Source: a virus. Taken from it: a DNA stretch of 22,689 bases. Both the position numbers and the translations under genes were made by a program. This document shows positions 1,421 through 18,761 of this stretch, one piece after another. The notes under the pieces were generated by a model. That model saw nothing but the letters and a program-made list of their open reading frames with translations. It searched no databases and had not been told where the DNA came from. Location of the stretch: positions 1 through 22,689 of IMG/VR virus record IMGVR_UViG_3300043811_000242; one strand, given 5' to 3'. Each line of letters begins with the position of its first letter. The first letter of the stretch is position 1.

Positions 1421-1426
1421 TAGTCT
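1421..1426 (+). promoter_or_regulatory. Leaderless-type -10 for TerL (TAGTCT)
   Basis: TAGTCT is followed by 7 nt and then ATG 1434. No Shine-Dalgarno is visible in that interval, so transcription would start at or within a base or two of the ATG. Confidence 0.5.
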
Positions 1427-1433
1427 CGCCCGG

Positions 1434-4136
1434 ATGGCGGACGGCGGGACGGACGAGCCGAGGGACCTGACGAACGAGGAACTCGAGGCGCTGAGCGCGC
1501 ACCTGCTCGCGAAGGCGGAGCGCGCGCGCGTCGACCCGGTGGCGTTCCTCGACTTCGTGATGGAGGAGGAGACGACGCGCGAGCCGATCGTCGCGGCCCC
1601 GCACCAGAGGCTCGCCTGCCACTTCATCCTGGACCACGAGCGGTGCGTGATCGTGCTGCCGCCGGGCTTCAGCAAGTGTCACGGCAGGGACACCCCGATC
1701 CTGATGTTCGACGGCGCGACCAAGCCCGTGCAGGATGTCCGGGTCGGGGACCGAGTCATGGGTGCCGACGGGAAGCCCAGGGTCGTTCTGGCGACCAACC
1801 GGGGAAGGGGGGAGCTCTTCGTGGTGACCCCCCACAAGGCCGGCCACCCGTTCACGGTGAATGAGGACCATGTCCTCACGCTTGTGAACACGGACACGGG
1901 CGAGGTGTTGGACATCTCTGTCCGCGAGTACCTGTCCCGCAGCGAGTGGTTCCGGGAGAGGCACAAGCTCTTCCACGCCCCGGTGGACGAGTTCGAGCGG
2001 AAGGCCTCGATTGGGATGGACCCGTACTTCCTCGGGGTCTGGTTCGGGGACGGCCTGCACTCGATCGCGCCGTCAAGAGGCGTCCGGGTGACTACGATTG
2101 AGCCAGAGATCGTCGAGTGCCTCGAGAACACGGCTCGGGACTATGGGCTTCAGTGCGTGAAGAGGGCGAAGTACGAGTACGCCCTGACGCTGAAGAAAGC
2201 GGACAGGGGACGGGAGAACACCCTGAAGGCGTCGATCCGTTTCGCGGTCGGCCGAGACCTCTCGTTGGAGAAAGTGAAGAGAGCTCCTCGCGAAGAGCGG
2301 GCGGAGTTCTTGGCGGGTTTCATTGATACGGACGGGGGCGTCGTCAAGAATTGCGTCACGCTCGTCCAGAAAAGGCGCGACTGGGCGGAAGCCATTGCGT
2401 TCATCGCGCGATCGCTGGGGCTGGCGGTGAGCGAGACGATCCGGACGGTCCCCGGCTACGGCTCGTACGTCTCGCTGGGGATCTACGGGGACTGGGAGCG
2501 GTCTGGCGTGCGACCGCGAGTCGCTAGGAAGCAATTCATGGCGAGGAGGGGCAAGCGCAACGCTCTGCGGAGTCGGTTCGAGGTGACTCCGATCGGGGAG
2601 GGCGACTTCTTCGGCTTCACGATCGGGGGCGATGGTCGGTACCTACTCGGGGACTTCACGGTCACGCACAACAGCTTTTTAGCGCTGGGGCTGTCGCTCT
2701 GGTTCCTCGGCCACGACGCGACGGCGCGCGGCGCGATCGTGAGCGCGGCGCAGGAGCAGAGCGAGAAGATCGTGACGGCGGTGCGCGCGTACATCGAGCA
2801 CTCCGCGAAGCTGCACCTGGTCTTCCCGCACCTCAGGCCGACGCAGCGCGACGGCGAGCCGTGGACGCAGACGAAGATCACGGTGGACCGCCCGGCTGGC
2901 ATCCGCGACCCGTCGCTGTCGGCGTACGGGCTCGACTCGAAGAGCATCCTCGGCTCGCGCCTCAAGTTCGCGTTCGTCGACGACCTCCTGAACGACGAGA
3001 ACACGCGGACGCCGGAGCAGCGGGAGAAGATCTACCGCTGGCTGCAGAACTCAGTGGTCTCGAGGAAGGACAAGGTCGGCGAGACGCACTTCGCGCTGAT
3101 GAACACGGCCTGGCACCCCGACGACGCGGTCCAGCGGTCGATCCGGGAGGGGTGGGCGGCGCTGAAGATGACGGTGACGGGGGACATCTACGTGCAGGAC
3201 TCGCAGGACCGCGTGGTGGTGGCGCGTGCGGCGGGGGTCGAGTTCAAGCCGTGGGACTCCGACGAGCTCCGGCTGGCCGACGAGTACGAGCCGAACCCGT
3301 GCCGGCTCGTGGCGCACGACCCGGACCCGGACAACCAGGTGCCGCTCTGGCCCGAGGTCTTCGACAACGTGAAGATCGAGGAGGCGCGCCGGAACAACGT
3401 GCCGGTGATCTTCAACCAGCTCTTCATGTGCGAGTGCCGCGACGACGCGACGGCGCTCTGCAAGCAGGAGTTCATCGACGCCTGTTACTCGACGGGGCGG
3501 AGGCTGAAGGTCGACGGCTTCACGAACCGCTTCCGCGGCCCGGAGCCGGTGTTCATCGGGGTGGACCTCGCGTTCGAGCCGGGCGAGGAGCACGATGAGA
3601 ACTGCCTGTTCGCGTTCTACCCGCGGCGGGACGGGGTGCGGGTCATCATCGACATCGACCTCGGGCAGTGGGACGGGCCGACGACATTGAAGAAGGTCGT
3701 CGCGATGCACGACCGGTTCAAGAACGAGAACAACTCGGTCGTGATCACGGTGGAATCGAACGGTGGTCAGGCCCTTTTGCGCCAGTTCGCGCTCGAGAAG
3801 GACCGGAGCCTGCCGATCAAGAGCCACACGACGACGATGGCGAAGGCGAAGCCGTGGAGCGGCATCCCGGGGATCTTCACGGAGCTGATGAATGGGGCGT
3901 GGGCGTTCCCGAATGACCGCCACGGCCAGGCGCACCCGAACGTGAGGAAGCTCGCCGACGCGTGCCTCTACTACACGCCGCAGCGGCACACGAGCGACGT
4001 GCTGATGGCGATGTACTTCGCCTGGAACCAGGCGAGGAAGTGGGGGACGTTGCGGCAGCAGTCGGACGCGTCGCCCGAGGGGCGCGCGAACGCGCGGAGG
4101 CGTGCCGGCGCCATCGCCCGGGTCATGCAGCGGTAG
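1434..4136 (+). CDS. terL: Terminase large subunit, intein-containing precursor
   Basis: The 900-residue precursor gives a 568-residue motor after intein removal, a normal size for TerL. It is the ATPase-nuclease that packages phage DNA into the prohead through the portal. The spliced Walker A is PPGFSK plus SFLALG, with the intein between Lys81 and Ser414. A Walker B-like stretch FAFVDDLLNDEN follows (Asp516/517 of the precursor). The RNase H-fold nuclease shows FIGVDLAF (Asp711), ITVESNGG (Glu774) and HTSDVLMAMYFAW (Asp855), the three acidic positions of TerL nucleases. The start is chosen from TAGTCT 7 nt upstream. The 3' end overlaps a convergent small gene by 14 bp. Splicing must occur before the P-loop can bind ATP, so activity depends on the intein. 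Confidence 0.95.
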   Translation: MADGGTDEPRDLTNEELEALSAHLLAKAERARVDPVAFLDFVMEEETTREPIVAAPHQRLACHFILDHERCVIVLPPGFSKCHGRDTPILMFDGATKPVQDVRVGDRVMGADGKPRVVLATNRGRGELFVVTPHKAGHPFTVNEDHVLTLVNTDTGEVLDISVREYLSRSEWFRERHKLFHAPVDEFERKASIGMDPYFLGVWFGDGLHSIAPSRGVRVTTIEPEIVECLENTARDYGLQCVKRAKYEYALTLKKADRGRENTLKASIRFAVGRDLSLEKVKRAPREERAEFLAGFIDTDGGVVKNCVTLVQKRRDWAEAIAFIARSLGLAVSETIRTVPGYGSYVSLGIYGDWERSGVRPRVARKQFMARRGKRNALRSRFEVTPIGEGDFFGFTIGGDGRYLLGDFTVTHNSFLALGLSLWFLGHDATARGAIVSAAQEQSEKIVTAVRAYIEHSAKLHLVFPHLRPTQRDGEPWTQTKITVDRPAGIRDPSLSAYGLDSKSILGSRLKFAFVDDLLNDENTRTPEQREKIYRWLQNSVVSRKDKVGETHFALMNTAWHPDDAVQRSIREGWAALKMTVTGDIYVQDSQDRVVVARAAGVEFKPWDSDELRLADEYEPNPCRLVAHDPDPDNQVPLWPEVFDNVKIEEARRNNVPVIFNQLFMCECRDDATALCKQEFIDACYSTGRRLKVDGFTNRFRGPEPVFIGVDLAFEPGEEHDENCLFAFYPRRDGVRVIIDIDLGQWDGPTTLKKVVAMHDRFKNENNSVVITVESNGGQALLRQFALEKDRSLPIKSHTTTMAKAKPWSGIPGIFTELMNGAWAFPNDRHGQAHPNVRKLADACLYYTPQRHTSDVLMAMYFAWNQARKWGTLRQQSDASPEGRANARRRAGAIARVMQR
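1677..2672 (+). other. Intein with LAGLIDADG homing endonuclease, in TerL Walker A
   Basis: This region encodes precursor residues 82-413 (332 aa). It begins with Cys82 (block A: CHGRDTPILMFDG) and has a block B-like NEDHVLTL region. It contains two dodecapeptide motifs, YFLGVWFGDG (about 198-207) and FLAGFIDTDG (about 292-301). It ends in block F/G FGFTIGGDGRYLLGDFTVTHN, with Ser414 as the first C-extein residue. All residues expected for class 1 splicing (Cys1, block B His, penultimate His, final Asn, +1 Ser) are present, so it looks active. Both endonuclease acidic residues are kept, which suggests a functional homing enzyme. Codons are less G/C-biased at third positions than in the exteins, consistent with later acquisition. 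Confidence 0.95.
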
Positions 4137-4359
4137 TCGCGGCGTGGCAGGCGAGCGCGGTCCTGCCGAGGGCAGTCACGTGCCAGGTGATGTAGACGAA
4201 GTGCTCATCCTCGAAGCGCCGCTCCTCGAGCAGTCCGCGCTTCACGAGTTCGGCGATCGCGGTCTCCTCGTAGGGGCTCGGGTCGTGGGTCATACCCGGG
4301 TCTACAGGGCCGAGTTGGTTCCTGAGGAGGTCGTGCTCCAGCATCGTGAGTCCGCGCAT
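4123..4359 (-). CDS. Small winged-helix-like protein
   Basis: This 78-residue reverse-strand gene is the only one on that strand I would accept. It begins MRGLTMLEHDLLRNQLG and continues with AIAELVKRGLLEERRFEDEHFVYITWHVTALGRTAL. The helix, the GLLEERRF turn and the beta-hairpin ending in TALGRTAL resemble the recognition helix and wing of MarR/PadR-like winged-helix proteins. The start is supported by TACCCT (complement of 4365-4370) 5 nt upstream. It is divergent from 4396 and converges on TerL with a 14-bp overlap. It could regulate the 4360-4395 double promoter. A longer reverse frame to 4689 is a shadow of 4396-4821. Confidence 0.6.
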   Translation of the reverse strand: MRGLTMLEHDLLRNQLGPVDPGMTHDPSPYEETAIAELVKRGLLEERRFEDEHFVYITWHVTALGRTALACHAATTAA

Positions 4360-4364
4360 GCTCG

Positions 4365-4370
4365 AGGGTA
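4365..4370 (-). promoter_or_regulatory. Reverse-strand leaderless-type -10 (TACCCT)
   Basis: On the reverse strand TACCCT is followed by 5 nt and then the ATG at 4359. It lies back-to-back with the forward TACGCT at 4384-4389, so one 36-bp spacer serves both genes. Confidence 0.4.
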
Positions 4371-4383
4371 TCGCGCGCGCCGG

Positions 4384-4389
4384 TACGCT
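4384..4389 (+). promoter_or_regulatory. Leaderless-type -10 (TACGCT)
   Basis: TACGCT is followed by 6 nt and then ATG 4396. No Shine-Dalgarno is visible. Confidence 0.45.
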
Positions 4390-4395
4390 CCGGGC

Positions 4396-4821
4396 ATGGT
4401 CAAGATCCCGGTCCGCTACATCGTGCACGTCCGGGACGACCTCCCAGACGGCACGTGGAAGCACTCGCGCTACGAGCTCCCCGCCGGGACGGTCATCCCC
4501 CGCCCCGAGGTGGGCGACGCGTTCTACATGCCCTGCCGATCGTGCCCGTACTGGGACAACTGCCTGGGGCGCCACCTCTACGTCATCGTCCCCGACCCGC
4601 TCTGGAACGGGCACTGGTTCAACGTGGACGCGCGGGCGGGCAACTGCGGTAGTCCCAACGAGCGCACGCACCGGTGCTGGGTGCGCCACGGGGACCCTGC
4701 GAAGGGAGAGCCGCTACAAGTCGACAAGAACGGCAACACCTGCGTGGCGGGGGCGGGCTCGATCCAGACGCACTCCTGGCACGGGTTCGTCGACCGCGGG
4801 TTCGTGACCGACAGGCGGTGA
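4396..4821 (+). CDS. Conserved phage hypothetical protein with CWVRHG and AGAGSI motifs
   Basis: The protein has 141 residues. It contains a cysteine cluster, PCRSCPYWDNCLGRH (CxxC...C), then a VIVPDPLWNGHWFNVDARAGNC segment, THRCWVRHGDP, and GAGSIQTHSWHGF near the C-terminus. This series of conserved-looking Cys, His, Trp and Gly positions recalls small phage proteins usually left unnamed. I cannot give the family name with certainty. The start at ATG 4396 is fixed by the -10-like hexamer 6 nt upstream, and the frame continues open upstream without coding character. It could be a metal-binding protein. No catalytic role is proposed. Confidence 0.75.
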   Translation: MVKIPVRYIVHVRDDLPDGTWKHSRYELPAGTVIPRPEVGDAFYMPCRSCPYWDNCLGRHLYVIVPDPLWNGHWFNVDARAGNCGSPNERTHRCWVRHGDPAKGEPLQVDKNGNTCVAGAGSIQTHSWHGFVDRGFVTDRR

Positions 4822-4839
4822 GCGGGTCGGCTCAGGCGG

Positions 4840-4845
4840 TATGGA
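4840..4845 (+). promoter_or_regulatory. Leaderless-type -10 (TATGGA)
   Basis: TATGGA is followed by 7 nt and then GTG 4853, the same geometry as at 7172 and 11026. This favours GTG 4853 over ATG 4841, which lies inside the hexamer. Confidence 0.35.
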
Positions 4846-4852
4846 TCGGAAC

Positions 4853-5056
4853 GTGAGCGGACCGTACTCAGGGCAGCTCCCGCGAGGGAACTACGTGCGC
4901 GTCGACGTGATGAAGACGGAGCCGATGACCCTGGGCATCCGGGAGAACGCGACCGAGGAGGTGATCCAGACCTGCAGGAGCGCGCTCTTCGCCGAGCAGC
5001 TCGTGCGGGAGTGGGACTGCCACTTCGAGCAGTCGAAGACGCGCCGGGGCCGGTGA
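4853..5056 (+). CDS. Hypothetical small protein
   Basis: The protein has 67 residues from GTG 4853. An in-frame ATG at 4841 would add four residues but overlaps the -10-like hexamer. The sequence contains VRVDVMKTEPMTLGIRENATEEVIQTCRSALFAEQLVREWDCHFEQ, a mixed alpha/beta-looking small protein with no recognised domain and a basic tail (KTRRGR). The stop overlaps the next ATG by one base (TGATG), so it is probably translated together with the small membrane protein that follows. Third positions are G/C-rich. Confidence 0.6.
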   Translation: MSGPYSGQLPRGNYVRVDVMKTEPMTLGIRENATEEVIQTCRSALFAEQLVREWDCHFEQSKTRRGR

Positions 5057-5157
5057 TGGTCGCCCGGTGGCTCGTCGAGGGTCGCGGGTGGGACGAGGTC
5101 CTCGTCGCCTACTGCGCGTTCGCGGCGTGGCTGGCGTGGGGCGCGCGCAAGAAGTGA
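5056..5157 (+). CDS. 33-residue single-pass membrane protein
   Basis: ATG 5056 overlaps the previous stop as TGATG. The product has an N-terminal basic/polar part (MVARWLVEGRGW), one hydrophobic helix (DEVLVAYCAFAAWLAWGA) and a terminal RKK. This is the look of a tiny membrane peptide. It ends 4 bp before a copy of the 20-bp palindrome. A holin-like or membrane-modifying role is possible but not shown by the sequence. Confidence 0.5.
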   Translation: MVARWLVEGRGWDEVLVAYCAFAAWLAWGARKK

Positions 5158-5161
5158 GGGC

Positions 5162-5181
5162 GACGGCGCCCGGGCGCCGTC
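5162..5181. repeat. 20-bp perfect palindrome, copy 2
   Basis: Exact GACGGCGCCCGGGCGCCGTC, starting 4 bp after the TGA at 5155-5157 and ending 6 bp before the TACCGT hexamer of the next gene. As RNA it can form an 8-bp stem with a CCGG loop. There is no T-tract. Confidence 0.9.
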
Positions 5182-5187
5182 GCGGGC

Positions 5188-5193
5188 TACCGT
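5188..5193 (+). promoter_or_regulatory. Leaderless-type -10 (TACCGT)
   Basis: TACCGT is followed by 7 nt and then ATG 5201. The palindrome at 5162-5181 covers the region where a -35 element would lie. Confidence 0.5.
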
Positions 5194-5200
5194 CGCGGGC

Positions 5201-5506
5201 ATGAGCCGAGTCGTGAAGGTCGACTACGGGGACGGGACATTCGGCCGCCGGTTCGACTGCCCCGGGTGCGGCGAGAAGCACGCGATCCCGGTGACGGGCC
5301 CGAAGGTGTGGGGCTTCAACGGCGACGACGAGCGCCCGACGTTCACGCCGAGCATCCTGGTCCGCGGGGTGAAGGGGGCGTGGGGGCCGGTCTTCGACCC
5401 GACGCCGACGGTGTGCCACTCCTTCGTGAAGGACGGGCGCATCCGGTTCCTCGACGACTGCACGCACGCGCTCGCGGGGAAGGAAGTCGACCTGCCCGCT
5501 GTCTAG
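5201..5506 (+). CDS. DUF6527-like phage protein
   Basis: The protein has 101 residues. It has an N-terminal FDCPGCGEKHAIPV zinc-ribbon half, then GFNGDDERPTFTPSILV, VCHSFVKDGRIRFLDDCTHALAGKEVDLP. This order (CPxC.xxHxxxV, ERPTFTPS, CHSFVxDGxIxFLxDCTHxLAG) matches a very common small phage protein family that I know as DUF6527, sometimes misnamed ammonia monooxygenase. The Cys/His positions suggest one zinc site. The function is unknown. The start is set by ATG 5201 with a -10-like hexamer 7 nt upstream and a palindrome before it. Confidence 0.8.
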   Translation: MSRVVKVDYGDGTFGRRFDCPGCGEKHAIPVTGPKVWGFNGDDERPTFTPSILVRGVKGAWGPVFDPTPTVCHSFVKDGRIRFLDDCTHALAGKEVDLPAV

Positions 5507-5511
5507 GGGCG

Positions 5512-5541
5512 TCGACCTCCCGGACCTCCCCGCGCTAGCGT
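5512..5541 (+). promoter_or_regulatory. Promoter for 5582 virion gene (TCGACC-18-TAGCGT)
   Basis: TCGACC (5512-5517) and TAGCGT (5536-5541) are separated by 18 bp. The predicted start near 5548 leaves a leader of about 34 nt containing GAGGAGAGGA, so this gene is Shine-Dalgarno-led, unlike its leaderless neighbours. Confidence 0.5.
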
Positions 5542-5581
5542 CGCGTCCGCGGGTGCTCCCGCGAGGAGAGGACCGGAACCC

Positions 5582-6244
5582 ATGAGCGCGATGATCCTGA
5601 TCACGACCGTCACCGCAGCCACGATCGGCGCGGGCGGGAACCCCGACGTCTACTTCGCGGGCTCCACGATCTCCGACGCCAACGTCCAGGCGGCGGTCCT
5701 GGCGGTGGGCGGGGTGCTCGCCCCGGCGACCGACCCGATCCTCGCGGCGGCGGCCGCTGTGGTCACGAGCCTCCGCAATTCGACGGCGATCGACGAGCAC
5801 CGAGCGTCGGCGATCATGACGGCGGCGATGGCGGGCGTGGCCTACGGGGAGGTGCCCCAGCGGGTCACGGTCGACGTCCCGCTCGCGACCATCCAGGCGC
5901 AGACGTCGGGGACGGCGTTCAACGTCGGGAGCGCGCTCCCAGCGAACGCGCGGCTGTTGAACGCCGAGGTCAACGTCCTCACGCCAGTCTCGGGCGGGAC
6001 GCTCAGCGCGGTCACGGTGAAGCTCGAGGGCGGCACGGACACGGCGGGCTCCATCCTGGGCGGAGCGTCGGGGCTCTCGGTCTTCACGGGCGCGTCGGCC
6101 GTCGTGGCGGGCAGCGGGTCGAACCCGTACCAGTCGCGCGGCGGCCAGCAGGTCAAGATGACCCTCACGGCGACGGGCGACACGCTCGCGGACGCGACGG
6201 CGGGCCACCTCTCGGTCGACCTGTTCTACAGCGTGACCCCGTGA
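5582..6244 (+). CDS. Probable virion structural protein
   Basis: The protein has 220 residues. The first half is Ala/Gly/Ile-rich (ILITTVTAATIGAGGNPDVYFAGSTI), and a helical segment with STAIDEHRASAIMTAAMAG follows. The second half reads as a beta-sandwich, with NAEVNVLTPVSGG, TVKLEGGTDTAGSILGG, QQVKMTLTATGDTLADATAGHLSVDLFYSV. That alternating pattern is typical of phage head decoration or minor tail proteins. It has a leader with GAGGAGAGGA and a dedicated promoter, which suggests strong expression. The stop overlaps the next start as GTGA. No exact family is recognised. Confidence 0.65.
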   Translation: MSAMILITTVTAATIGAGGNPDVYFAGSTISDANVQAAVLAVGGVLAPATDPILAAAAAVVTSLRNSTAIDEHRASAIMTAAMAGVAYGEVPQRVTVDVPLATIQAQTSGTAFNVGSALPANARLLNAEVNVLTPVSGGTLSAVTVKLEGGTDTAGSILGGASGLSVFTGASAVVAGSGSNPYQSRGGQQVKMTLTATGDTLADATAGHLSVDLFYSVTP

Positions 6245-6723: not shown

Positions 6724-6729
6724 GCGGCA

Positions 6730-6735
6730 TAGACC
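6730..6735 (+). promoter_or_regulatory. Leaderless-type -10 (TAGACC)
   Basis: TAGACC is followed by 7 nt and then GTG 6743. It is one of the weaker matches (ends in C). Confidence 0.35.
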
Positions 6736-6742
6736 GGGGACG

Positions 6743-7155: not shown

Positions 7156-7158
7156 GGG

Positions 7159-7164
7159 TACCGT
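7159..7164 (+). promoter_or_regulatory. Leaderless-type -10 (TACCGT)
   Basis: TACCGT is followed by 7 nt and then GTG 7172. It lies just after the TAG stop at 7153-7155. No Shine-Dalgarno is visible. Confidence 0.5.
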
Positions 7165-7171
7165 CGCCCGG

Positions 7172-7561: not shown

Positions 7562-7581
7562 GACGGCGCCCGGGCGCCGTC
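7562..7581. repeat. 20-bp perfect palindrome, copy 3
   Basis: Exact copy starting at the base after the TGA stop and ending 4 bp before TAGCCT. Its position fits a terminator for 7172-7561 or an operator over the next promoter. Confidence 0.9.
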
Positions 7582-7585
7582 GGAG

Positions 7586-7591
7586 TAGCCT
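7586..7591 (+). promoter_or_regulatory. Leaderless-type -10 (TAGCCT)
   Basis: TAGCCT is followed by 7 nt and then ATG 7599, directly downstream of palindrome copy 3. Confidence 0.5.
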
Positions 7592-7598
7592 GCGGGCC

Positions 7599-8027: not shown

Positions 8028-8048
8028 CCCGCGGCATCAGCTGAGGCC

Positions 8049-8499: not shown

Positions 8500-8736
8500 A
8501 TGCTCCCCGAGTGCAAGAAGGCGAACGACCTGTCGGCTGCGGCGAAGAAGAGCGGCAGCTCCGACGACCACGCGGCCGCGGCGCGGGCGCACGATACGGC
8601 GACGAAGGCCGCCTTCAAGTCGGGCGACCCGGTCGCGGGGAAGGAGCACGCCAAGAAGGCGGCCAAGCACCGCGCCAAGGCGAAGGTCGGCAAGGTGCCG
8701 GTCCTCTCGACGTGGGCGCAGTCGCGGACGAAGTAG
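8500..8736 (+). CDS. Ala/Lys/His-rich helical protein with C-terminal WAxSR motif
   Basis: The 78-residue basic protein is almost entirely helical in appearance (KANDLSAAAKKSG, DDHAAAARAHDTATKAAFKSG, HAKKAAKHRAKAKVGK). It ends with VPVLSTWAQSRTK. The composition resembles histone H1-like or DNA-condensing proteins. It is clearly related to the next gene, with shared HAxAAxAH helices, a DPV turn and an LSxWAxSR end. No clear -10-like hexamer is found at the standard distance. Its stop TAG (8734-8736) begins the TAGGCC hexamer of the following gene. A nucleic-acid-binding or internal-virion role is inference from composition only. Confidence 0.55.
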   Translation: MLPECKKANDLSAAAKKSGSSDDHAAAARAHDTATKAAFKSGDPVAGKEHAKKAAKHRAKAKVGKVPVLSTWAQSRTK

Positions 8737-8739
8737 GCC
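8734..8739 (+). promoter_or_regulatory. Leaderless-type -10 overlapping a stop codon (TAGGCC)
   Basis: The stop TAG of 8500-8736 forms the first three bases of TAGGCC, which is followed by 8 nt and then GTG 8748. Confidence 0.35.
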
Positions 8740-8747
8740 CGGGGACC

Positions 8748-9074
8748 GTGGGCTTCGACCACGGCGCGCACCCGCGCGAGGAGCGGGGGACGTTCACGCT
8801 CGTGGGCGGGGACGGCCACGCGCGCGCGGCGTCGAAGCGGGCCCGCGCGGCGTCGAAGGCGGCCAAGGACGGGGGCTCGCACGCGAAGGCGGCGGAGGCC
8901 CACCGCGAGGCGCAGAGGGCGCACGAGCTGTCGGCGAAGAGGGCCGACCCGGTGAAGCGGACCGCGCACCTCGCGAGCGCGAGGACGCACGCCGCGGCGG
9001 CGAGGGACCACGAGAAGCGGGCGGAGGGGAGCGGTCCGCTCTCCCGCTGGGCGGAGTCCAGGGCGAGCCGCTAG
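8748..9074 (+). CDS. Ala/His/Arg-rich helical protein, paralogue of 8500-8736
   Basis: The 108-residue protein starts at GTG 8748; the frame is open farther upstream but overlaps 8500-8736. After a short polar start, it repeats Ala-rich helices (ARAASKRARAASKAAKDGG, HAKAAEAHREAQRAHELSAK, LASARTHAAAARDHEKRAEG). It ends GPLSRWAESRASR. The end matches LSTWAQSRTK of the previous gene, and the helices align around DPV, so this is a tandem duplication followed by divergence. It is strongly basic, so DNA binding or head-interior location is plausible but unproven. Its TAG stop begins the next hexamer TAGCGT. Confidence 0.55.
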   Translation: MGFDHGAHPREERGTFTLVGGDGHARAASKRARAASKAAKDGGSHAKAAEAHREAQRAHELSAKRADPVKRTAHLASARTHAAAARDHEKRAEGSGPLSRWAESRASR

Positions 9075-9077
9075 CGT
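9072..9077 (+). promoter_or_regulatory. -10-like hexamer overlapping a stop codon (TAGCGT)
   Basis: Stop TAG 9072-9074 is part of TAGCGT, followed by 10 nt and then GTG 9088. The spacing is longer than the usual 6-8, so the transcript may have a leader of 2-4 nt. Confidence 0.4.
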
Positions 9078-10077: not shown

Positions 10078-10105
10078 TTGCAAGGATGTAATCGGTAGCT
10101 AGTAT
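10078..10105 (+). promoter_or_regulatory. Sigma70-type promoter TTGCAA-16-TAGTAT
   Basis: TTGCAA (10078-10083) and TAGTAT (10100-10105) are separated by 16 bp in an AT-rich island that stands out from the GC-rich surroundings. TAGTAT ends 7 nt before ATG 10113, so the transcript would be leaderless. It is the best non-capsid match to a bacterial housekeeping promoter in the window. Confidence 0.6.
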
Positions 10106-10112: not shown

Positions 10113-10232
10113 ATGACGAACTGCTCCTGCGACGCCGAGAAGGTCTGCCCGTACAGCCCGACGATCCCGGTCCCGCCGCCCTCCGAGGAGGGCTTCGACG
10201 TCGACCTCGTCGCGGTCGGCGAGGAGGAGTGA
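10113..10232 (+). CDS. 39-residue acidic protein sharing C-terminal motif
   Basis: ATG 10113 lies 7 nt after TAGTAT. The sequence begins MTNCSCDAEKVCPYSPTIPVPPP and ends EEGFDVDLVAVGEEE. The N-terminal CxC...C could bind a metal or form a disulfide. The C-terminal GFDVDLVAVGEE matches GFLVDLLAVGEE of the preceding gene, so the two are partial paralogues. The stop overlaps the next start as GTGA. It is short, but the strong promoter, codon bias and shared tail support it. Confidence 0.6.
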   Translation: MTNCSCDAEKVCPYSPTIPVPPPSEEGFDVDLVAVGEEE

Positions 10233-10775: not shown

Positions 10776-11029
10776 GCTACTCGGGCGAGTTCCGGGGCCT
10801 GGCGGAGGCGGTGCGCGTCCACGTCGCGGACCTCGTCGCGGAGGAGACGGCGCTCGTCGAGCGGCTCTTCCTGGCGTACCCGTGGGCGACGCACGCGGTG
10901 AGCACGTACACCCACGAGTGGGGCTCCCAGCCGAGGATCCGGATCGACGCCCGCGCTTACGGGTCGATGCCGGCGGAGTTGCTGAGGGGGGCGCGACTCT
11001 GGGGGCGGAAGGTACCGTCCGAGGCGTGA
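10772..11029 (+). CDS. Hypothetical protein
   Basis: The protein has 85 residues from GTG 10772 (GTGA overlap). It is helical in the first half (FRGLAEAVRVHVADLVAEETALVERLFLAYPWATHAVSTYTHEW) and basic later (RIRIDARAYGSMPAELLRGARLWGRKVPSEA). An upstream extension would overlap the membrane peptide and is rejected. Its stop TGA (11027-11029) overlaps GTG 11026 of the next gene. No family is recognised. Confidence 0.55.
   Translation: MSYSGEFRGLAEAVRVHVADLVAEETALVERLFLAYPWATHAVSTYTHEWGSQPRIRIDARAYGSMPAELLRGARLWGRKVPSEA
11013..11018 (+). promoter_or_regulatory. Leaderless-type -10 inside upstream gene (TACCGT)
   Basis: TACCGT is followed by 7 nt and then GTG 11026. It lies inside the 3' end of 10772-11029, so the downstream gene has both a GTGA coupling and its own possible promoter. 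Confidence 0.45.
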
Positions 11030-11429: not shown

Positions 11430-11435
11430 TAGCTT
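11430..11435 (+). promoter_or_regulatory. Leaderless-type -10 (TAGCTT)
   Basis: TAGCTT is followed by 8 nt and then ATG 11444. No Shine-Dalgarno is visible. Confidence 0.45.
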
Positions 11436-11443
11436 CCTCACCC

Positions 11444-12663: not shown

Positions 12664-12678
12664 TCTCGGGGGTAGGGT
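12650..12678 (+). promoter_or_regulatory. Promoter TCGACT-17-TAGGGT, leaderless
   Basis: TCGACT (12650-12655) and TAGGGT (12673-12678) have the optimal 17-bp spacer. TAGGGT is followed by 8 nt and then ATG 12687. Confidence 0.5.
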
Positions 12679-12686
12679 CGCGTCAC

Positions 12687-13526: not shown

Positions 13527-13543
13527 GCGGCATCACGTCGGGC

Positions 13544-13735
13544 GTGCCCGACGCCGTCCTCTTCGCAGCGGTCTTCCTGTTCATCCGGTGGGCGACGAAG
13601 CAGCGTCGCGAGCGCGCGGTGCGCAAGGGGAGCCCGATCGAGGTCATCGAGGGGGACGGCCCGAGATCGCTCGTCGCGCTCGACAGCGGGGCCGTGGCGC
13701 GCGCGCTGAAGGGGTCGAAGAAGGACCCGGAGTAG
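13544..13735 (+). CDS. Small membrane protein, holin-like
   Basis: The protein has 63 residues from GTG 13544, with one N-terminal hydrophobic helix (DAVLFAAVFLFIRWA). A strongly basic TKQRRERAVRKG stretch follows, then a soluble tail. This single-pass N-out/C-in look and its position directly after the TIM-barrel candidate endolysin fit a holin or lysis regulator, but it could be any small membrane protein. The 17-nt gap before it contains TAGGCG, the preceding stop region, without a clear Shine-Dalgarno. Its own TAG stop begins the next hexamer. Confidence 0.5.
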   Translation: MPDAVLFAAVFLFIRWATKQRRERAVRKGSPIEVIEGDGPRSLVALDSGAVARALKGSKKDPE

Positions 13736-13738
13736 CCT
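13733..13738 (+). promoter_or_regulatory. Leaderless-type -10 overlapping a stop codon (TAGCCT)
   Basis: The TAG stop of 13544-13735 is the first half of TAGCCT, followed by 8 nt and then ATG 13747. Confidence 0.5.
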
Positions 13739-13746
13739 CCGGCCCG

Positions 13747-14313
13747 ATGCAGAACGTCACGAGCGTGAGCTGGGTGGTGGTCGAGGATTCGGTGTACCCG
13801 CGCGGGTTGGAGGTCGACTCGGCGAAGCAGCGCGTCCTCCGCGCGCGCGGAGGGGTGGCGCTCCCGTGCTCCTCGGCGCTCCTCCGCATGGGCGCGGTGA
13901 GCGGTTTCGCGGTGGTCGACCTCGGGTACGGCGCCCTCATGGGCGAGTTCCCGGGGCCGCGCGCGCGTGTCGCCGTGCGCTCCACGGGGCGCGAGTGCTG
14001 GGTCGCCTGGGCGGCGAAGCTCGTCCCGGGGGAGACGATGCTCCCGCTCCTCCGCGAGGGTCGGCAGCGCGCGCAGGGGGCGCTCCGCGTGATCGCGGAC
14101 GGTTCCGTCGCGAACACGATCGCGAGCCTCGGCTCGGCGCCGGCGACCCCCTTCGACTACTCGGGGGAGCCGAAGGGCGACGGCTGGATCATCGAGGGAC
14201 TCGGCGAGGCGAACTTCCAGGGGGAAGGCCACTACGGGCTGCAGCTCCACGGCCAGGGGAGCCAGGGTCTCCGGGTGAAGTGGTTCGCCGTGACGATCGT
14301 CGAGCGCGTCTGA
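13747..14313 (+). CDS. Hypothetical, possibly structural protein
   Basis: The protein has 188 residues from ATG 13747. It is rich in beta-type segments (SVSWVVVEDSVYPRGLEVD, AVSGFAVVDLGYGALMGEF, RARVAVRSTGRECWVAWAAKL) and ends LRVKWFAVTIVERV. The middle carries LREGRQRAQGALRVIADGSVANTIASLGS. No family is recognised. It could be a virion or accessory protein. The stop overlaps ATG 14313 (TGATG). The frame is open upstream across the preceding gene, but the hexamer spacing decides the start. Confidence 0.55.
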   Translation: MQNVTSVSWVVVEDSVYPRGLEVDSAKQRVLRARGGVALPCSSALLRMGAVSGFAVVDLGYGALMGEFPGPRARVAVRSTGRECWVAWAAKLVPGETMLPLLREGRQRAQGALRVIADGSVANTIASLGSAPATPFDYSGEPKGDGWIIEGLGEANFQGEGHYGLQLHGQGSQGLRVKWFAVTIVERV

Positions 14314-14600
14314 TGCTGCGGTCGGTGCGTAGGGTCGTGGGCGGGCTCGTGGTGCTCGCGGGGGCGGCGGTCGCGCGCGTGGGGGCGCGGGTCGCCGGCT
14401 ACCGCGAGCAGGGGGACGTGTTCCCTCCCGACGAGCCGGCCGAGGAGGACTTCGAGATCGTCGGCGCGGTGATGACGCCCGACGCCGAGGAGATGCTCTA
14501 CCGCCCCGTCCGCGAGGAGCGGGAGGTCGAAGCGGAGCCGCTCCCGGGGAGCGTCGCGCACCGCCGCTGGGCTCAGCGGCGTGCGGCAGCACCGCGCTAG
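14313..14600 (+). CDS. Membrane-anchored small protein
   Basis: The 95-residue protein starts at ATG 14313 (TGATG overlap). The N-terminus has MLRSVRRV followed by a hydrophobic run GGLVVLAGAAVARVGARVAG, probably a signal anchor. The rest is acidic (PPDEPAEEDFEIVGAVMTPDAEEML, REEREVEAEPL) and ends HRRWAQRRAAAPR, loosely like the WAxSR ends of the 8500 and 8748 proteins. The TAG stop (14598-14600) begins TAGTCT before the portal gene. The role is unknown; it may belong with the lysis-like group upstream. Confidence 0.55.
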   Translation: MLRSVRRVVGGLVVLAGAAVARVGARVAGYREQGDVFPPDEPAEEDFEIVGAVMTPDAEEMLYRPVREEREVEAEPLPGSVAHRRWAQRRAAAPR

Positions 14601-14603
14601 TCT
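14598..14603 (+). promoter_or_regulatory. -10-like hexamer before portal, overlapping a stop codon (TAGTCT)
   Basis: TAGTCT includes the TAG stop of 14313-14600. The gap to ATG 14619 is 15 nt, so a leader of about 9 nt is expected. No Shine-Dalgarno is visible in it. Confidence 0.35.
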
Positions 14604-14618
14604 CCGCGCCACGCTCCA

Positions 14619-16739
14619 ATGACGATGGCGAACCTCAGCGAGGCCGGCGGCACCATGTTCGGGTCCTCGACCTGGGGCCCCACCGGCAGCTTCCGGGGGA
14701 GGAACCTCCTCGACTCCGAGCGGTACGCGGTGATCGAGCGCCGGCTCGCGTACTTCGACTGCACGCAGCACGACCGGAAGAAGTTCGACTTCGACGGCCG
14801 GATCTACGACGCGCAGGGCGGCCGCGGGATCAGCGCGACGCAGCCGCTGCTCTCGGCGGAGCAGTACCCCGACTTCGTGCCGCTCTCGCGCAGGCGACCG
14901 AGCGCGCCTGCGCGCCTGGGCCGGACGATCGTGCAGTCGTTCACGTCGCTGCTCTTCGGCGAGGAGCGATTCCCCAAGTTCCTCGCGCCGAGCGACCCGG
15001 CGGCGCAGGACTACATGGGCGCGCTCTCGGTGGCCCAGCACCTGCCGCGGCGGATGATCAGCGCGCGGAACTACGGCGGCGCGTGCGGGACGGTCGCGAT
15101 GTCGTGGGCGTTCCTCCGCGGCAAGCCGGTGACCGCGGTGCACAACCCGAAGAACATCCACGTCGCGTCGTGGATGGACCGGGACGAGCTCGTGCCCGAG
15201 CACGTGATCAAGTGCTTCCAATACTCGACGCTCGAGTGGAACCCGGAGAAGAAGAAGCTCGAGACGGTCTGGTGGTGGTACCGGCGCGACTGGACGCCCT
15301 ACGTCGACGTCGTCTTCCAGCCGGTGCGGGTGAGCAAGGACCTGCCGGTCTTCATCCCCGACCCGACGAAGATCGTCCAGCACGACGACGGGGTCTGCCA
15401 CTTCACGTGGGGACAGAACCTGCCGAGCGACGAGGTCGACGGAGAGCCGGACTACGAGGGCGTCTACGACCTGCTCGACCAGGCCGACATCACGCTGAGC
15501 GTCGTCACGCGCGGCGCGAACCTGAACCTCGACCCCACGCTCGTCCTCAAGATGGACCCCGACCAGGTCGCGGTCGGCGGCGTGAAGAAGGGGAGCGGCA
15601 ACGGCCTCACGGTCGGCGAGGCCGGTGACGCGAAGTACCTGGAGCTCGCCGGCGCGGGCATCCTCGCGGGCCTCGAGCTCTTCAAGGTGATCCGCAAGAC
15701 GACCCTGGAGGACGCGCAGTGCGTGATCCCGGACCCCGACGAGGCGACGGCGAACGGGCAGTCGAGCGTCGCGATGAAGGCGCTCTATCGTCCGATGCTC
15801 GGCAAGGGCGACGTGCTCCGCGAGCAGTACGGGAGCATCATCCGGCGCCACCTCGAGCCGCAGCTCGTGATCGCGCGCCGCAAGTCGCGGTCGACCATGG
15901 TGGTGGTCGAGCCCGACGGCTCGGAGAAGCACTACGACGAGGTGCTCGACCTCCCCCCGAAGATCGAGAAGGGTCCGCCGACTCCGGAGGAGCCGCAGGG
16001 CGCGATGCACGAGGTCGAGCGCGACCCGGGCCACGCGGAGAGCGTGGACCTCGACTGGGGAGAGTGGTTCCCGCCGACGCCGCAGGACGCCTCGACGTAC
16101 GTGACCGCGATCGGCAACGCGACGGGCGGCAAGCCTTCGATGTCGGCGCGCACGGGCTCGGAGCTCGTCGCGTCGTTCCTCGGCCGCGACCCCGACGAGG
16201 AGCGCTCGCGGATCGAGGAGGAGACGCAGCACGCGGCCGACCAGCAGTCGGCCATGTTCGGCGGCCTGCCGAACGCGTCGCAGGGCGCGAAGGTCACGCA
16301 CACCGTCCCGACGCCGGGCGGCGGCACGGTGAAGGCGCAGATCGGGCCGCCGGAGAGCTCGAGCTCCACGGAGTCGAGCGAGTCGGAGCCGGAGAAGGAC
16401 GACGGGACGCGCGGCGCGATCCCGCTGAGCCCCCAGGCGGCGATGGCCCTGTCGACGGTCGACGAGTACCGCGTCTCGATGGGGCTCTCGCCTCTCGGCG
16501 GGGACGACGGCTCGCTGTCGGTCGCCGCGTTCCTCGCGAAGTACGGGGAGGCGATCGCCAAGGGCGCGAACGCGATCACCGGCAAGGTCGGCGCGACTCC
16601 TGGCGCCCCGCCGCCGGCGCCGAAGGGACCCCCGGGCGGGGGCCCCCCGGGCCACGGTCCTCCCGGAGCTCCTCCCGGTCACCCCCCCGGAGTCCTCCCC
16701 CCGAAGCCGCCCGGCGGCGGCAACCCGTTCGGCGGCTGA
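14619..16739 (+). CDS. Portal protein
   Basis: The 706-residue protein forms the dodecameric ring at one capsid vertex through which TerL pumps DNA. Features fitting large portal proteins are an N-terminal ARLGRTIVQSFTSLLFGEERFP and VAQHLPRRMISARNYGGACGTVAMSWAF clip/wing region. A core follows with DKDxVPEHVIKxF-like DRDELVPEHVIKCFQY and YDLLDQADITLSVVTRGANLNLDPTLVL. The stem/crown helix GDAKYLELAGAGILAGLELFKVIRKTTLEDAQCV leads to KALYRPMLGKGDVLREQYGSIIRRHLEPQL. The C-terminal 40 residues are Pro/Gly-rich and disordered-looking. Its position between the candidate lysis group and the head morphogenesis gene is standard for portals. ATG 14625 is an alternative start. Confidence 0.88.
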   Translation: MTMANLSEAGGTMFGSSTWGPTGSFRGRNLLDSERYAVIERRLAYFDCTQHDRKKFDFDGRIYDAQGGRGISATQPLLSAEQYPDFVPLSRRRPSAPARLGRTIVQSFTSLLFGEERFPKFLAPSDPAAQDYMGALSVAQHLPRRMISARNYGGACGTVAMSWAFLRGKPVTAVHNPKNIHVASWMDRDELVPEHVIKCFQYSTLEWNPEKKKLETVWWWYRRDWTPYVDVVFQPVRVSKDLPVFIPDPTKIVQHDDGVCHFTWGQNLPSDEVDGEPDYEGVYDLLDQADITLSVVTRGANLNLDPTLVLKMDPDQVAVGGVKKGSGNGLTVGEAGDAKYLELAGAGILAGLELFKVIRKTTLEDAQCVIPDPDEATANGQSSVAMKALYRPMLGKGDVLREQYGSIIRRHLEPQLVIARRKSRSTMVVVEPDGSEKHYDEVLDLPPKIEKGPPTPEEPQGAMHEVERDPGHAESVDLDWGEWFPPTPQDASTYVTAIGNATGGKPSMSARTGSELVASFLGRDPDEERSRIEEETQHAADQQSAMFGGLPNASQGAKVTHTVPTPGGGTVKAQIGPPESSSSTESSESEPEKDDGTRGAIPLSPQAAMALSTVDEYRVSMGLSPLGGDDGSLSVAAFLAKYGEAIAKGANAITGKVGATPGAPPPAPKGPPGGGPPGHGPPGAPPGHPPGVLPPKPPGGGNPFGG

Positions 16740-16759
16740 GACGGCGCCCGGGCGCCGTC
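16740..16759. repeat. 20-bp perfect palindrome, copy 4
   Basis: Exact copy starting at the base after the portal TGA and ending 3 bp before TAGTGT of the head morphogenesis gene. The whole portal-to-head junction is 35 bp and consists essentially of this palindrome plus the hexamer. Confidence 0.9.
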
Positions 16760-16762
16760 GCG

Positions 16763-16768
16763 TAGTGT
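16763..16768 (+). promoter_or_regulatory. Leaderless-type -10 (TAGTGT)
   Basis: TAGTGT is followed by 6 nt and then GTG 16775. No Shine-Dalgarno is visible. Confidence 0.45.
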
Positions 16769-16774
16769 CGCGGC

Positions 16775-17812
16775 GTGGGAGCGGCAGCGAGGGCGATCGA
16801 GGGACTCCCGGCGCGAGGCAAGGCGCACGAGCGAGCGCGCTCCTCGCTGCTGGCGAGCCACGTGGCGGCGGAGCGCTACACGCAGGAGGTCGGACCGCAG
16901 CGGCTCGCCGAGGTCCTCCGCGAGGCCGTCGAGGACCTCACGCTGCGCCTGAACCGGCAGATCCTCCTGGGCGCGGGGGAGACCTTCACGGTGAACCAGA
17001 TCCGCGTCGCGCTCGCGCAGGTGACGCACGTGCTCGCGTCGATCGTCGCGCCCGGGATGCGGACGGCAGTCGTCGACGTCTCGGGCCAGGCGGCGCGCGC
17101 GGCCGCGCAGGCGACGGTGGACTACCTGGAGCTGGCCGACAAGGCGTTCCTGGGGGTCGCGCAGCCGCTGGGACTCGACACGGCGAGGATGCTCGACCGC
17201 TCGGCGTCGGGGGCCGAGGCGAGCGTCCTGCGCAGGCTGTCGGGCGACCCCCTGCACCCGGCTCGCCGGGGGATCCTCTCGCGCTACGGGGTCCAGACCG
17301 TGGGCTACTTCGAGGACGAGCTCCGGAAGGGGATGGTCGCGAAGAAGCCGTGGGGCGAGATGCGGGACGACCTCACGAAGAGGTCGCCGTTCCTGCAGGG
17401 TGCGCCGCGCTACTGGGCCGAGCGGATCGTCCGGACGGAGGTGGCGGGGGCCCACGGGCGCGCGCAGCTCGAGTCGGCCAAGGACGCGCACGAGCAGCTT
17501 GGCGACGTCGTGAAGATCGTGAGCTCGACGGTCGACGACCGGACCGGGTCGGACAGCATCGCGATCCACGGCCAGGTGCGCCGGGTGGGCGAGTCGTTCG
17601 CGAGCTGGAACGGCGCGTTCGACGCTCCCCCGGACCGGCCGAACGACCGCGCGGTGCTCGTGACTCACCGGGTCGCGTGGGGACCGCCGCCGGCGCACCT
17701 GCAGCCGAAGCCGTGGGACGCGGTGGTCGCTCGCTGGAAGCGGGAGAAGCGCCGGGGATCTCCCCCGGCGCTTCCCCTCATGTCGACGGTGAGCTTCGCT
17801 CGGGCGAAGTGA
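16775..17812 (+). CDS. Head morphogenesis protein, Mu F / SPP1 gp7 family
   Basis: The protein has 345 residues from GTG 16775. The N-terminal half is helical (YTQEVGPQRLAEVLREAVEDLTLRLNRQILLGAGETFT). The C-terminal part shows GYFEDELRKGMVAKKPWGEMRDDLTKRSPFLQ, then YWAERIVRTEVAGAHGRAQLESA and VSSTVDDRTGSDSIAIHGQV, SWNGAFDAPPDRPNDRAVLVTHR. The RTE...A...R, DDRTxxxSxxxHGQ and PxxRPNDR order is that of the phage Mu F-like family, minor head proteins that bind the portal and help capsid assembly. The last residues overlap a strong hairpin (17746-17774) and a smaller one (17794-17809), and the tail (SPPALPLMSTVSFARAK) is atypical. Confidence 0.85.
   Translation: MGAAARAIEGLPARGKAHERARSSLLASHVAAERYTQEVGPQRLAEVLREAVEDLTLRLNRQILLGAGETFTVNQIRVALAQVTHVLASIVAPGMRTAVVDVSGQAARAAAQATVDYLELADKAFLGVAQPLGLDTARMLDRSASGAEASVLRRLSGDPLHPARRGILSRYGVQTVGYFEDELRKGMVAKKPWGEMRDDLTKRSPFLQGAPRYWAERIVRTEVAGAHGRAQLESAKDAHEQLGDVVKIVSSTVDDRTGSDSIAIHGQVRRVGESFASWNGAFDAPPDRPNDRAVLVTHRVAWGPPPAHLQPKPWDAVVARWKREKRRGSPPALPLMSTVSFARAK
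17746..17774. terminator. 12-bp stem hairpin within 3' end of head morphogenesis gene
   Basis: GAAGCGCCGGGG (17746-17757) pairs perfectly with CCCCGGCGCTTC (17763-17774) around a 5-nt ATCTC loop. It sits inside the coding sequence, about 38 bp before the stop. A second hairpin CTTCGC-TCGG-GCGAAG follows at 17794-17809. There is no T-run, so intrinsic termination is uncertain; mRNA end protection or pausing is also possible. Confidence 0.5.
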
Positions 17813-18082
17813 AGAGGGGGCTCTGCCTGTAGACGGGCTTCCCCCAGCAGAACGTGACGAAGTGGAAGTAGACGCCGCGCTCCCCAGCCGGGGCGAACGT
17901 TTAGGAAGAAGGGAGGGGCCCACTTGGGGTCGGAACTGCCCAAAGGTCGCTGGGCCCACCCGTTCGTCGCAGATATGAGGATCGCGCTCATGTCTCGAAT
18001 GACGTCGCGACCATGTTGGCGAACGAGGAGAAGTGGCTGTCGTTCATGGCGACCTGGATGCCGCCGCTGCTAGGTGATCTCC
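17813..18082 (+). other. Largely non-coding interval with predicted RNA structure and a possible gene remnant
   Basis: This 270-bp gap is the first stretch without a credible gene. GGGCCCA (17916-17922) pairs with TGGGCCC (17951-17957), enclosing TTGGG (17924-17928) with CCCAA (17939-17943), a two-tier stem-loop. At 18013-18073 a short frame reading MLANEEKWLSFMATWMPPLL has strong G/C third positions and could be a gene fragment broken by a frameshift. The same bases also carry TAGGTG at 18071-18076 just before ATG 18083. I see no other convincing gene on either strand. Confidence 0.45.
18071..18076 (+). promoter_or_regulatory. -10-like or Shine-Dalgarno element (TAGGTG)
   Basis: TAGGTG is followed by 6 nt and then ATG 18083. 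The core AGGTGA could also act as a Shine-Dalgarno at suitable spacing, so this one is ambiguous. Confidence 0.35.
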
Positions 18083-18259
18083 ATGGCCGCGATCAAGTCG
18101 GGCGAGGAACGGGCGCAGCCGCTCCCGAACATTGGCGGGGCGAAGCCGCTGCCGAACGACGCCGAGCTGCCCCCGGGCACCGGCCACGGGCACTCGCCCG
18201 AGATCAAGTGGCCCCCTGCGGACAACGGCCCCGGTAAGCCGTTCAAAAACCTCAAGTAA
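18083..18259 (+). CDS. Small Pro/Gly/Lys-rich protein ending PFKNLK
   Basis: The protein has 58 residues from ATG 18083; an in-frame GTG at 18074 is less likely. The sequence is polar and Pro/Gly-rich without predicted structure: AAIKSGEERAQPLPNIGGAKPLPNDAELPPGTGHGH and so on. It ends GKPFKNLK. The next gene ends RPFKGLK, so the pair share a C-terminal peptide although the rest is not alignable by eye. It lies between head morphogenesis and virion genes. The role is unknown; the small basic end may be a binding peptide. Confidence 0.55.
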   Translation: MAAIKSGEERAQPLPNIGGAKPLPNDAELPPGTGHGHSPEIKWPPADNGPGKPFKNLK

Positions 18260-18279
18260 TTCGACGAAGGAGACGGACC

Positions 18280-18603
18280 ATGGGTGACCAGAAGATGAGC
18301 GGTGCGGCGAGTCCCCCCTTCGCGACGAAGGACGGCAAGCCGCAGGGCCAGGGCAGCGGGTCGAGCGGAGCCGCGAACTTCGTGACGGACGCGAACTCCA
18401 AGGTCGGCGACAAGACCGGCCCGGGCTACCTGATGAAGGACCGCCCGCAGAGTGAGGCCCGCCCCGAGGTGGTCCCGAACCCGCAGAGCGTCGTGGCGGG
18501 CGGGAAGATCCTGAAGGCCGACCCGGGCCCTGTCTCGGCGAAGGTCGCCGGCACGGCGGCTTCGATCCCGTCCGTCCCGCGCCCCTTCAAGGGCCTCAAG
18601 TAA
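18280..18603 (+). CDS. Low-complexity Gly/Ser/Pro/Lys protein ending PFKGLK
   Basis: The 107-residue protein starts at ATG 18280 with a good Shine-Dalgarno (GAAGGAG, about 8 nt upstream), so it is Shine-Dalgarno-led. It is unstructured-looking: GAASPPFATKDGKPQGQGSGSSGAANFVTDANSKVGDKTGPG. It ends SVPRPFKGLK, the same PFKxLK end as the preceding protein. TAA is followed 3 bp later by palindrome copy 5. It may be a head-interior or assembly protein by context only. Confidence 0.6.
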   Translation: MGDQKMSGAASPPFATKDGKPQGQGSGSSGAANFVTDANSKVGDKTGPGYLMKDRPQSEARPEVVPNPQSVVAGGKILKADPGPVSAKVAGTAASIPSVPRPFKGLK

Positions 18604-18606
18604 GCG

Positions 18607-18626
18607 GACGGCGCCCGGGCGCCGTC
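18607..18626. repeat. 20-bp perfect palindrome, copy 5
   Basis: Exact copy, 3 bp after the TAA stop at 18601-18603. It is the first of four consecutive inverted repeats in this intergenic region. Confidence 0.9.
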
Positions 18627-18695
18627 GGGTGCGGTATAGGCCGGGATGCCAAGTCGGCCTCCTGGGTAGTTTGCTGTCTATCCAGGGGGTACAGG

Positions 18696-18731
18696 AAGCC
18701 CCGGGACTCACCCTCCCGGGGCTTTCGTCTT
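18696..18731 (+). terminator. Intrinsic (Rho-independent) terminator
   Basis: The 11-bp perfect stem AAGCCCCGGGA/TCCCGGGGCTT with 7-nt loop CTCACCC is followed by TTCGTCTT. It is the most canonical terminator in the window and separates the 18083-18603 genes from the 18762 virion gene. Confidence 0.75.
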
Positions 18732-18748
18732 CCATGGTCGGCGGGTGG

Positions 18749-18754
18749 TACGGC
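18749..18754 (+). promoter_or_regulatory. Leaderless-type -10, weak (TACGGC)
   Basis: TACGGC is followed by 7 nt and then ATG 18762. The last base is C rather than T, so it is a poorer match than the others. Confidence 0.3.
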
Positions 18755-18761
18755 TCGGGGC

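Follow-up and report, generated by a model that had tools for sequence, protein, structure and literature searches.

Here we found that a TANNNT hexamer stands directly upstream of many start codons in the IMG/VR virus record IMGVR_UViG_3300043811_000242, taken whole as a window of 22,689 bases (71% GC, listed as linear and as a probable fragment), and that these hexamers most likely represent sigma70-type -10 elements driving leaderless mRNAs. This reading, put forward by a first-pass annotation of the window, is supported at sequence level by the spacing of the hexamer, by an exclusion of Shine-Dalgarno sites that depends on distance, by conservation at orthologs and by recurrence in related genomes, and we give it a probability of about 0.87. 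We infer that a sigma factor binds the hexamer, that transcripts have their 5' end at the start codon, and that ribosomes translate these mRNAs in leaderless form. RNA polymerase would bind the -10 element and open the DNA, RNA synthesis would begin on the start codon's purine or no more than one or two nucleotides from that codon, and the message would be read by ribosomes recognising a 5'-terminal AUG or GUG rather than a Shine-Dalgarno site. The TANNNT class lies mainly in the head and packaging region of the window and would give many genes a promoter of their own, with a few genes (the capsid gene 21239, and 20094, 5582, 18280 and 19262) using a Shine-Dalgarno leader instead.

The first-pass annotation had listed 18 hexamers. 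Their coordinates are right, but only 13 are exact TANNNT; the other five, 4840 TATGGA, 6730 TAGACC, 8734 TAGGCC, 18071 TAGGTG and 18749 TACGGC (before the starts 4853, 6743, 8748, 18083 and 18762), lack T at position 6. Even so, T is strongly over-represented at that position (13 of 18, p=2e-8). For the 13 exact sites the hexamer indeed ends 5-10 nt before the start codon, with a mode of 7 nt; the gap is sharp at 6-8 nt, and the first T lies most often 13 nt before the start. TANNNT is otherwise scarce in the window, with 22 occurrences on the plus and 5 on the minus strand (27 in total), and TA dinucleotides number 216 against 476 expected. The promoter-like sites are as follows.

1421-1426, plus strand: predicted -10 TAGTCT, 7 nt before ATG 1434 (intein-bearing terminase large subunit; the terminase of G002 likewise)
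4365-4370, minus strand: predicted -10 TACCCT, 5 nt before ATG 4359(-); paired divergently with 4384
4384-4389, plus strand: predicted -10 TACGCT, 6 nt before ATG 4396
5188-5193, plus strand: predicted -10 TACCGT, 7 nt before ATG 5201
7159-7164, plus strand: predicted -10 TACCGT, 7 nt before GTG 7172; kept at the G004 ortholog
7586-7591, plus strand: predicted -10 TAGCCT, 7 nt before ATG 7599
9072-9077, plus strand: -10-like TAGCGT, 10 nt before GTG 9088; its TAG is the stop of the upstream gene
10100-10105, plus strand: predicted -10 TAGTAT, 7 nt before ATG 10113
11013-11018, plus strand: predicted -10 TACCGT, 7 nt before GTG 11026; kept in the G003, G004 and G008 orthologs
11430-11435, plus strand: predicted -10 TAGCTT, 8 nt before ATG 11444; kept in the G001, G002 and G010c orthologs
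12673-12678, plus strand: predicted -10 TAGGGT, 8 nt before ATG 12687
13733-13738, plus strand: predicted -10 TAGCCT, 8 nt before ATG 13747; its TAG is the stop of the upstream gene
16763-16768, plus strand: predicted -10 TAGTGT, 6 nt before GTG 16775 (head morphogenesis protein); kept in the G009c ortholog
8734-8739, plus strand: degenerate -10 TAGGCC before GTG 8748; the G004 ortholog has a perfect TAGGCT
4840-4845, plus strand: weak TATGGA before GTG 4853, a gene start that is uncertain
18071-18076, plus strand: weak TAGGTG before ATG 18083
18749-18754, plus strand: weak TACGGC before ATG 18762
14598-14603, plus strand: TAGTCT, 15 nt before ATG 14619 (portal-like); the leader would be about 8 nt
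5536-5541, plus strand: TAGCGT, predicted leader-type promoter upstream of the Shine-Dalgarno-led gene 5582
20039-20044, plus strand: TAGCGT, predicted leader-type promoter upstream of the Shine-Dalgarno-led gene 20094
20984-21013, plus strand: TTGACG-N18-TAGCGT, predicted long-leader promoter, with a -35, upstream of the capsid gene 21239

The divergent genes 4359(-) and 4396(+) are separated by 36 bp, and each has its own adjacent -10 hexamer.

Gene calls were made from codon usage alone, blind to upstream sequence, which avoids a circular choice of starts; the codon model was trained on known window genes and then retrained for each genome. A gene caller self-trained on the 70% GC genomes was dropped, as it picked antisense open reading frames (ORFs) and returned 12 genes per strand in the window. 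The codon-usage finder returned 13 of the 18 listed starts exactly, and TANNNT lies 5-10 nt upstream in 12 of the 40 called window genes. A comparison with shuffled sequence, proposed by the first-pass annotation, bears this out: 2000 dinucleotide shuffles of the upstream 40-mers gave a mean of 0.70 genes and a maximum of 5. Among all 1040 ATG/GTG triplets of the window, 13 have TANNNT at this offset (p ~1e-17 to 1e-19), and every one of these is a called gene start or, at 10113, an in-frame alternative of one.

As had been noted from the letters, Shine-Dalgarno sites are missing at the hexamer genes, with cores at 0 of 12 sites compared with 11 of 28 other window genes. The genes described as leadered are likewise Shine-Dalgarno-led, and 5582, 20094 and 21239 carry TAGCGT 40, 49 and ~225 nt upstream instead; for 18280 and 19262, the Shine-Dalgarno site is kept in most relatives. 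When eight genomes were pooled, with an intergenic hexamer 18-84 nt away counted as distant, Shine-Dalgarno sites were found at 2 of 65 genes with an adjacent hexamer, at 30 of 54 (56%) with a distant one, and at 241 of 722 without a hexamer. The enrichment at distant-hexamer genes over genes without a hexamer (p=0.0016) is a contrast that is not geometric.

The hexamer recurs in the relatives of this virus, six of 88-103 kb (G002, G003, G004, G008, G009c and G010c) and the shorter G001 and G005. A peak with the first T 12-13 nt before the start is present in G004 (13/136 genes, p=6e-13), G001 (5/47, p=6e-7), G002 (10/131, p=2e-7) and G003 (7/118, p=2e-4), and is also visible in G009c, G010c and G008. 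These seven are the relatives with a GC content above 60% whose sequence was read completely or in large part; in G005 (58.6% GC) and some shorter loci the peak is weak or absent. Among reciprocal-best ortholog pairs, 35 have the hexamer in both members, against a mean of 12.5 and a maximum of 30 in 5000 permutations. The consensus pooled over 53 sites of the window and relatives is TGG-TAGGCT-C.

Several observations weigh against leaderless expression from these sites. The exclusion between an adjacent hexamer and a Shine-Dalgarno site is partly geometric, as both would occupy the same stretch. The hexamers at 9072 (gap 10) and 4370 (gap 5) would give a leader of a few nucleotides or a start inside the codon. 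Over the 53 pooled sites, there was no clear spacer-specific excess of a -35 near TTGACA at 16-18 bp, the single clear -35/-10 case being 20984-21013, a leadered promoter. Finally, the T of an extended -10 (TG) occurs at 0 of 12 window sites; with 18 of 53 pooled sites having it, such an extension is suggested in the relatives only.

By k-mer enrichment upstream of starts, we found a second start-anchored element. CGGCA lies 15-18 nt before starts in G004 (GCGGCATAAGG), G003 (CGGCACTCTC), and G002 and G010c (GCGGCAT), with p values of 1e-3 to 8e-8, and CGCCAT ~14-17 nt before starts in G009c (CGCGCCATCATCC, ten genes) and G008; the sequence of the element is lineage-specific (loci L037-L051 and L054-L068 of the relatives). 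Nine ortholog pairs have it in both members, compared with 0.99 expected and a maximum of 7. In the window, two starts (8049 and 13544) carry it, 6743 is a probable and 909 a possible further case.

8032-8036, plus strand: second-class CGGCA, 17 nt before ATG 8049 (nucleoside deoxyribosyltransferase-like, below the Pfam cut-off)
13528-13532, plus strand: second-class CGGCA, 16 nt before GTG 13544
889-893, plus strand: possible second-class CGGCA, 20 nt before GTG 909
6725-6735, plus strand: CGGCATAGACC before GTG 6743, listed as TANNNT-like and a better fit to the second class (CGGCA)

Site 6743, which the first-pass annotation had counted with the TANNNT sites, therefore probably belongs to this other class. 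Likewise, the idea that the phage uses two initiation modes understates the situation, as the relatives show two start-anchored classes in addition to the leadered mode.

The two classes differ in the genes they precede. The comparison used a PHROGs scan of a sample of longer genes, counting named functions, with genes carrying both motifs (the G004 helicase and the G010c polymerase) assigned to the second class. Named second-class genes encode DNA helicases, DNA polymerases, a replication initiator, an SbcD-like nuclease, DNA methyltransferases, dCTP deaminase, thymidylate synthase, a DHH phosphoesterase and one small terminase; in our own reading, 17 of 18 belong to DNA or nucleotide metabolism, with the methyltransferases and the DHH phosphoesterase categorised as 'other' by PHROGs. 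All seven named TANNNT-class genes encode head, packaging, baseplate/tail or endolysin functions (Fisher p=1.7e-5 for the split). In G010c, the DNA polymerase start is immediately preceded by a tRNA T-arm-like sequence (GTTCGAGTCC), a short way upstream of 65247 (L062:5247).

Each of the six near-complete relatives has a homologous sigma-like protein of 207-228 amino acids, with a match to Sigma70 region 2 in five of them, and G008 has an additional, longer sigma-like protein of 273 amino acids that also matches region 2.

L034, L033, L043:2096-2755, L062:3209-3829, L055:1783-2418 (minus strand) and L066:8248-8931 (minus strand): core sigma-like protein, by homology

The structure model of this protein has moderate confidence (predicted local distance difference test score 75.7, predicted template modelling score 0.48). 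A structure search with it gave no match below E=1e-3; the best matches were sigma factors, and locally the model resembles the region 2 domain of SigE and that of E. coli sigmaE in complex with its -10 strand. Any region 4 of the protein is putative. The segment aligned with region 2.4 reads DKAKK or NAAKK in the CGGCA phages and TDTKR or VVGKA in the CGCCAT phages, so region 2.4 would vary with the second-class element; given the few sequences and their shared descent, this is suggestive only.

Such a protein raises the alternative that the hexamers are read by a phage sigma-like factor and form a dedicated phage late regulon, a variant that is compatible with leaderless mRNA. Its conservation in the relatives and the fact that no -35 would be needed speak for this. 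Yet high-GC bacteria generally have TANNNT as their -10 (PMC3160421), and the same weak peak occurs at 5 of 91 genes in chromosomal contigs binned with G009, if that binning is right. The chromosomal contigs that share a bin with G009 or G010, a binning that may be wrong, showed no second-class element, and this element would be the better candidate for a phage sigma; moreover, the sigma-like gene is not within the window fragment. Thus, a phage factor reading the hexamers seems unlikely, and the host housekeeping sigma is the more likely reader. It is tentatively conceivable, with somewhat better odds than that variant, that there are two leaderless regulons, TANNNT read by host sigma-A for virion genes and CGGCA/CGCCAT read by a phage sigma of the extracytoplasmic function (ECF) type for replication genes, with covarying region 2.4 and with palindromes particular to each lineage serving between cassettes as terminators at gene ends or as operators.

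The perfect palindrome GACGGCGCCCGGGCGCCGTC occurs in five copies in the window, and a near-copy lies at 20959.

5162-5181, unstranded: GACGGCGCCCGGGCGCCGTC between stop codon and promoter
7562-7581, unstranded: GACGGCGCCCGGGCGCCGTC directly after a stop codon, 4 nt before a -10
16740-16759, unstranded: GACGGCGCCCGGGCGCCGTC directly after a stop codon, 3 nt before a -10
18607-18626, unstranded: GACGGCGCCCGGGCGCCGTC 3 nt after a stop codon
1215-1234, unstranded: GACGGCGCCCGGGCGCCGTC within the called gene 909-1364

Three of these lie 3-6 nt before a -10. Relatives have palindromes of their own, namely CCCAAACCCGGGTTTGGG in G004 (26 copies), ATTGGAAACCCGGGTTTCCAAT in G002 (18) and TTCGAAAAGCGCTTTTCGAA in G003 (14), and the cores CGCCGCGCGGCG in G008 (16) and AACCCCGGGGTT in G009c (9); in G010c and G001 there is no dominant palindrome. 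Many copies start at a distance of 0-5 nt from the preceding stop codon, often ahead of a promoter, and folding them as RNA gives strong hairpins. As terminators they would lack a U tract, and part of the copies are located within called genes; terminator, insulator and operator are all candidate roles. In G008 (L064-L068), GTGTCTAGACAC palindromes lie ~22-26 nt before several starts, abutting the -10 of adjacent-hexamer genes in an operator-like manner.

These palindromes bear on the possibility that the hexamers are genuine -10 elements while the main transcripts come from read-through of upstream operons, leaderless mRNA being minor and translation depending on coupling or reinitiation. Dense gene packing, for the most part on a single strand and with several gaps of only 11-23 nt, is consistent with such an arrangement. 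But it fits poorly with the missing Shine-Dalgarno sites at adjacent-hexamer genes, with the retention of the hexamer at orthologs, and with strong hairpin-forming palindromes between several stop codons and promoters, and we regard it as improbable.

Still less probable is that the hexamer works as an operator or at the level of translation, with no link to the start of transcription. Anchoring to the start codon is what would be expected of a ribosome site, but the hexamer resembles no anti-Shine-Dalgarno complement, it also occurs far upstream of Shine-Dalgarno-led genes (5536, 20039 and 21008, the last with TTGACG 18 bp before it), and the corresponding Deinococcus motif cannot be replaced by a ribosome site (PMC12340547). 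The idea that the hexamers are a by-product of TAG stops of upstream genes just before the next start can practically be set aside, even though the preceding stop is TAG at 9072 and 13733 and also at 8734 and 14598: the overlap concerns only 2 of 12 window sites and 5 of the 13 exact sites are of the TAC type, so that stop codons do not explain the hexamers, an idea also largely refuted by the 8 overlaps with an upstream stop among 83 adjacent hexamers in nine genomes and by the excess of T at position 6.

Leaderless start-codon promoters are a known but unusual way of protein production. In Deinococcus radiodurans, a -10 motif at the same spacing has been experimentally shown to make leaderless mRNA (PMC12340547), and in high-GC bacteria a TANNNT signal ~12 bp upstream of the start defines leaderless genes, predicted for many of them (PMC3160421). 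The window resembles both in the TANNNT core, the 6-7 bp gap and the lack of a Shine-Dalgarno site, and its hexamer share of genes (26-30%) is close to the almost one third in D. radiodurans (PMC12340547). Unlike Deinococcus, the present case is a phage family, and the relatives have the hexamer at only ~6-19% of called genes.

Among phages, leaderless middle and late transcripts are reported for Thermus phage phiYS40 (Sevostyanova 2007, as cited in PMC3594737). Going by that citation, phiYS40 is likewise a phage with leaderless mRNAs for late-type genes, a link that would here be made through gene function (7/7); it was characterised by transcript analysis, and the present family differs from it in having a second element on replication genes and a sigma-like protein. 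In Thermus phage P23-45, gp39 redirects host RNA polymerase to extended -10 promoters, and its middle and late promoters similarly function without a -35 (PMC7403470), but the TG extension is not found at the window sites. Cluster K mycobacteriophages have a start-associated sequence (SAS) and an extended SAS at start codons, similar in being a short conserved element at many starts, often with an inverted repeat just upstream (PMC3203893). The 13-bp SAS GGGATAGGAGCCC has no match in the window at up to two mismatches, and, in contrast to cluster K, the palindromes here are perfect and the element resembles a -10.

The novelty lies in the phage family and in the two-class layout; the split of this layout by gene function looks new, leaderless expression itself being already known. 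Few phages are documented to use leaderless expression genome-wide, phiYS40 being the case found; a family whose start-anchored promoters can be recognised in metagenomic DNA therefore offers a useful model. With two element classes divided by gene function, the timing of phage transcription would become predictable from DNA, and the sigma-like protein of the relatives would have a precise, testable role. In addition, a -10 at 6-8 nt would fix gene starts in GC-rich phages, where start calling is hard.

The proteins named in the window are the following.

1434-4136, plus strand: terminase large subunit with intein
14619, plus strand: portal-like protein, by homology to a relative's protein that has a weak portal match; no direct family match
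16775, plus strand: head morphogenesis protein
21239, plus strand: major capsid protein

Capsid homologs occur in IMG/VR contigs at 60-68% identity and in three contigs of metagenome-assembled genomes (MAGs) at 45-61%. Megablast against named phages gave no match to the window, and a scan of IMG/VR with the head protein 16775 gave none; a test against Rfam families was negative. Among named phages, Streptomyces phage Kromp and two Komagataeibacter phages are the only ones with a capsid match, at ~30%, and therefore no host was assigned. A host based on the MAG contigs was rejected, as their bins (a proteobacterium, Armatimonadetes and Methylocystis) are mutually inconsistent. The terminase intein (window ~1677-2672) contains a LAGLIDADG homing endonuclease domain, and alignments to the terminases of relatives break there. 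At 18607-18730, a palindrome is followed by CGGTATAGG, a 7-codon ORF (18646) and a highly stable hairpin (-33 kcal/mol), possibly a small RNA or a leader peptide. Positions 1-370, at the contig end, hold a long imperfect GTCGGCGGA repeat within an ORF. The small ORF at 438-824 encodes a cysteine-rich, possibly secreted protein, of a perhaps myxobacterial look.

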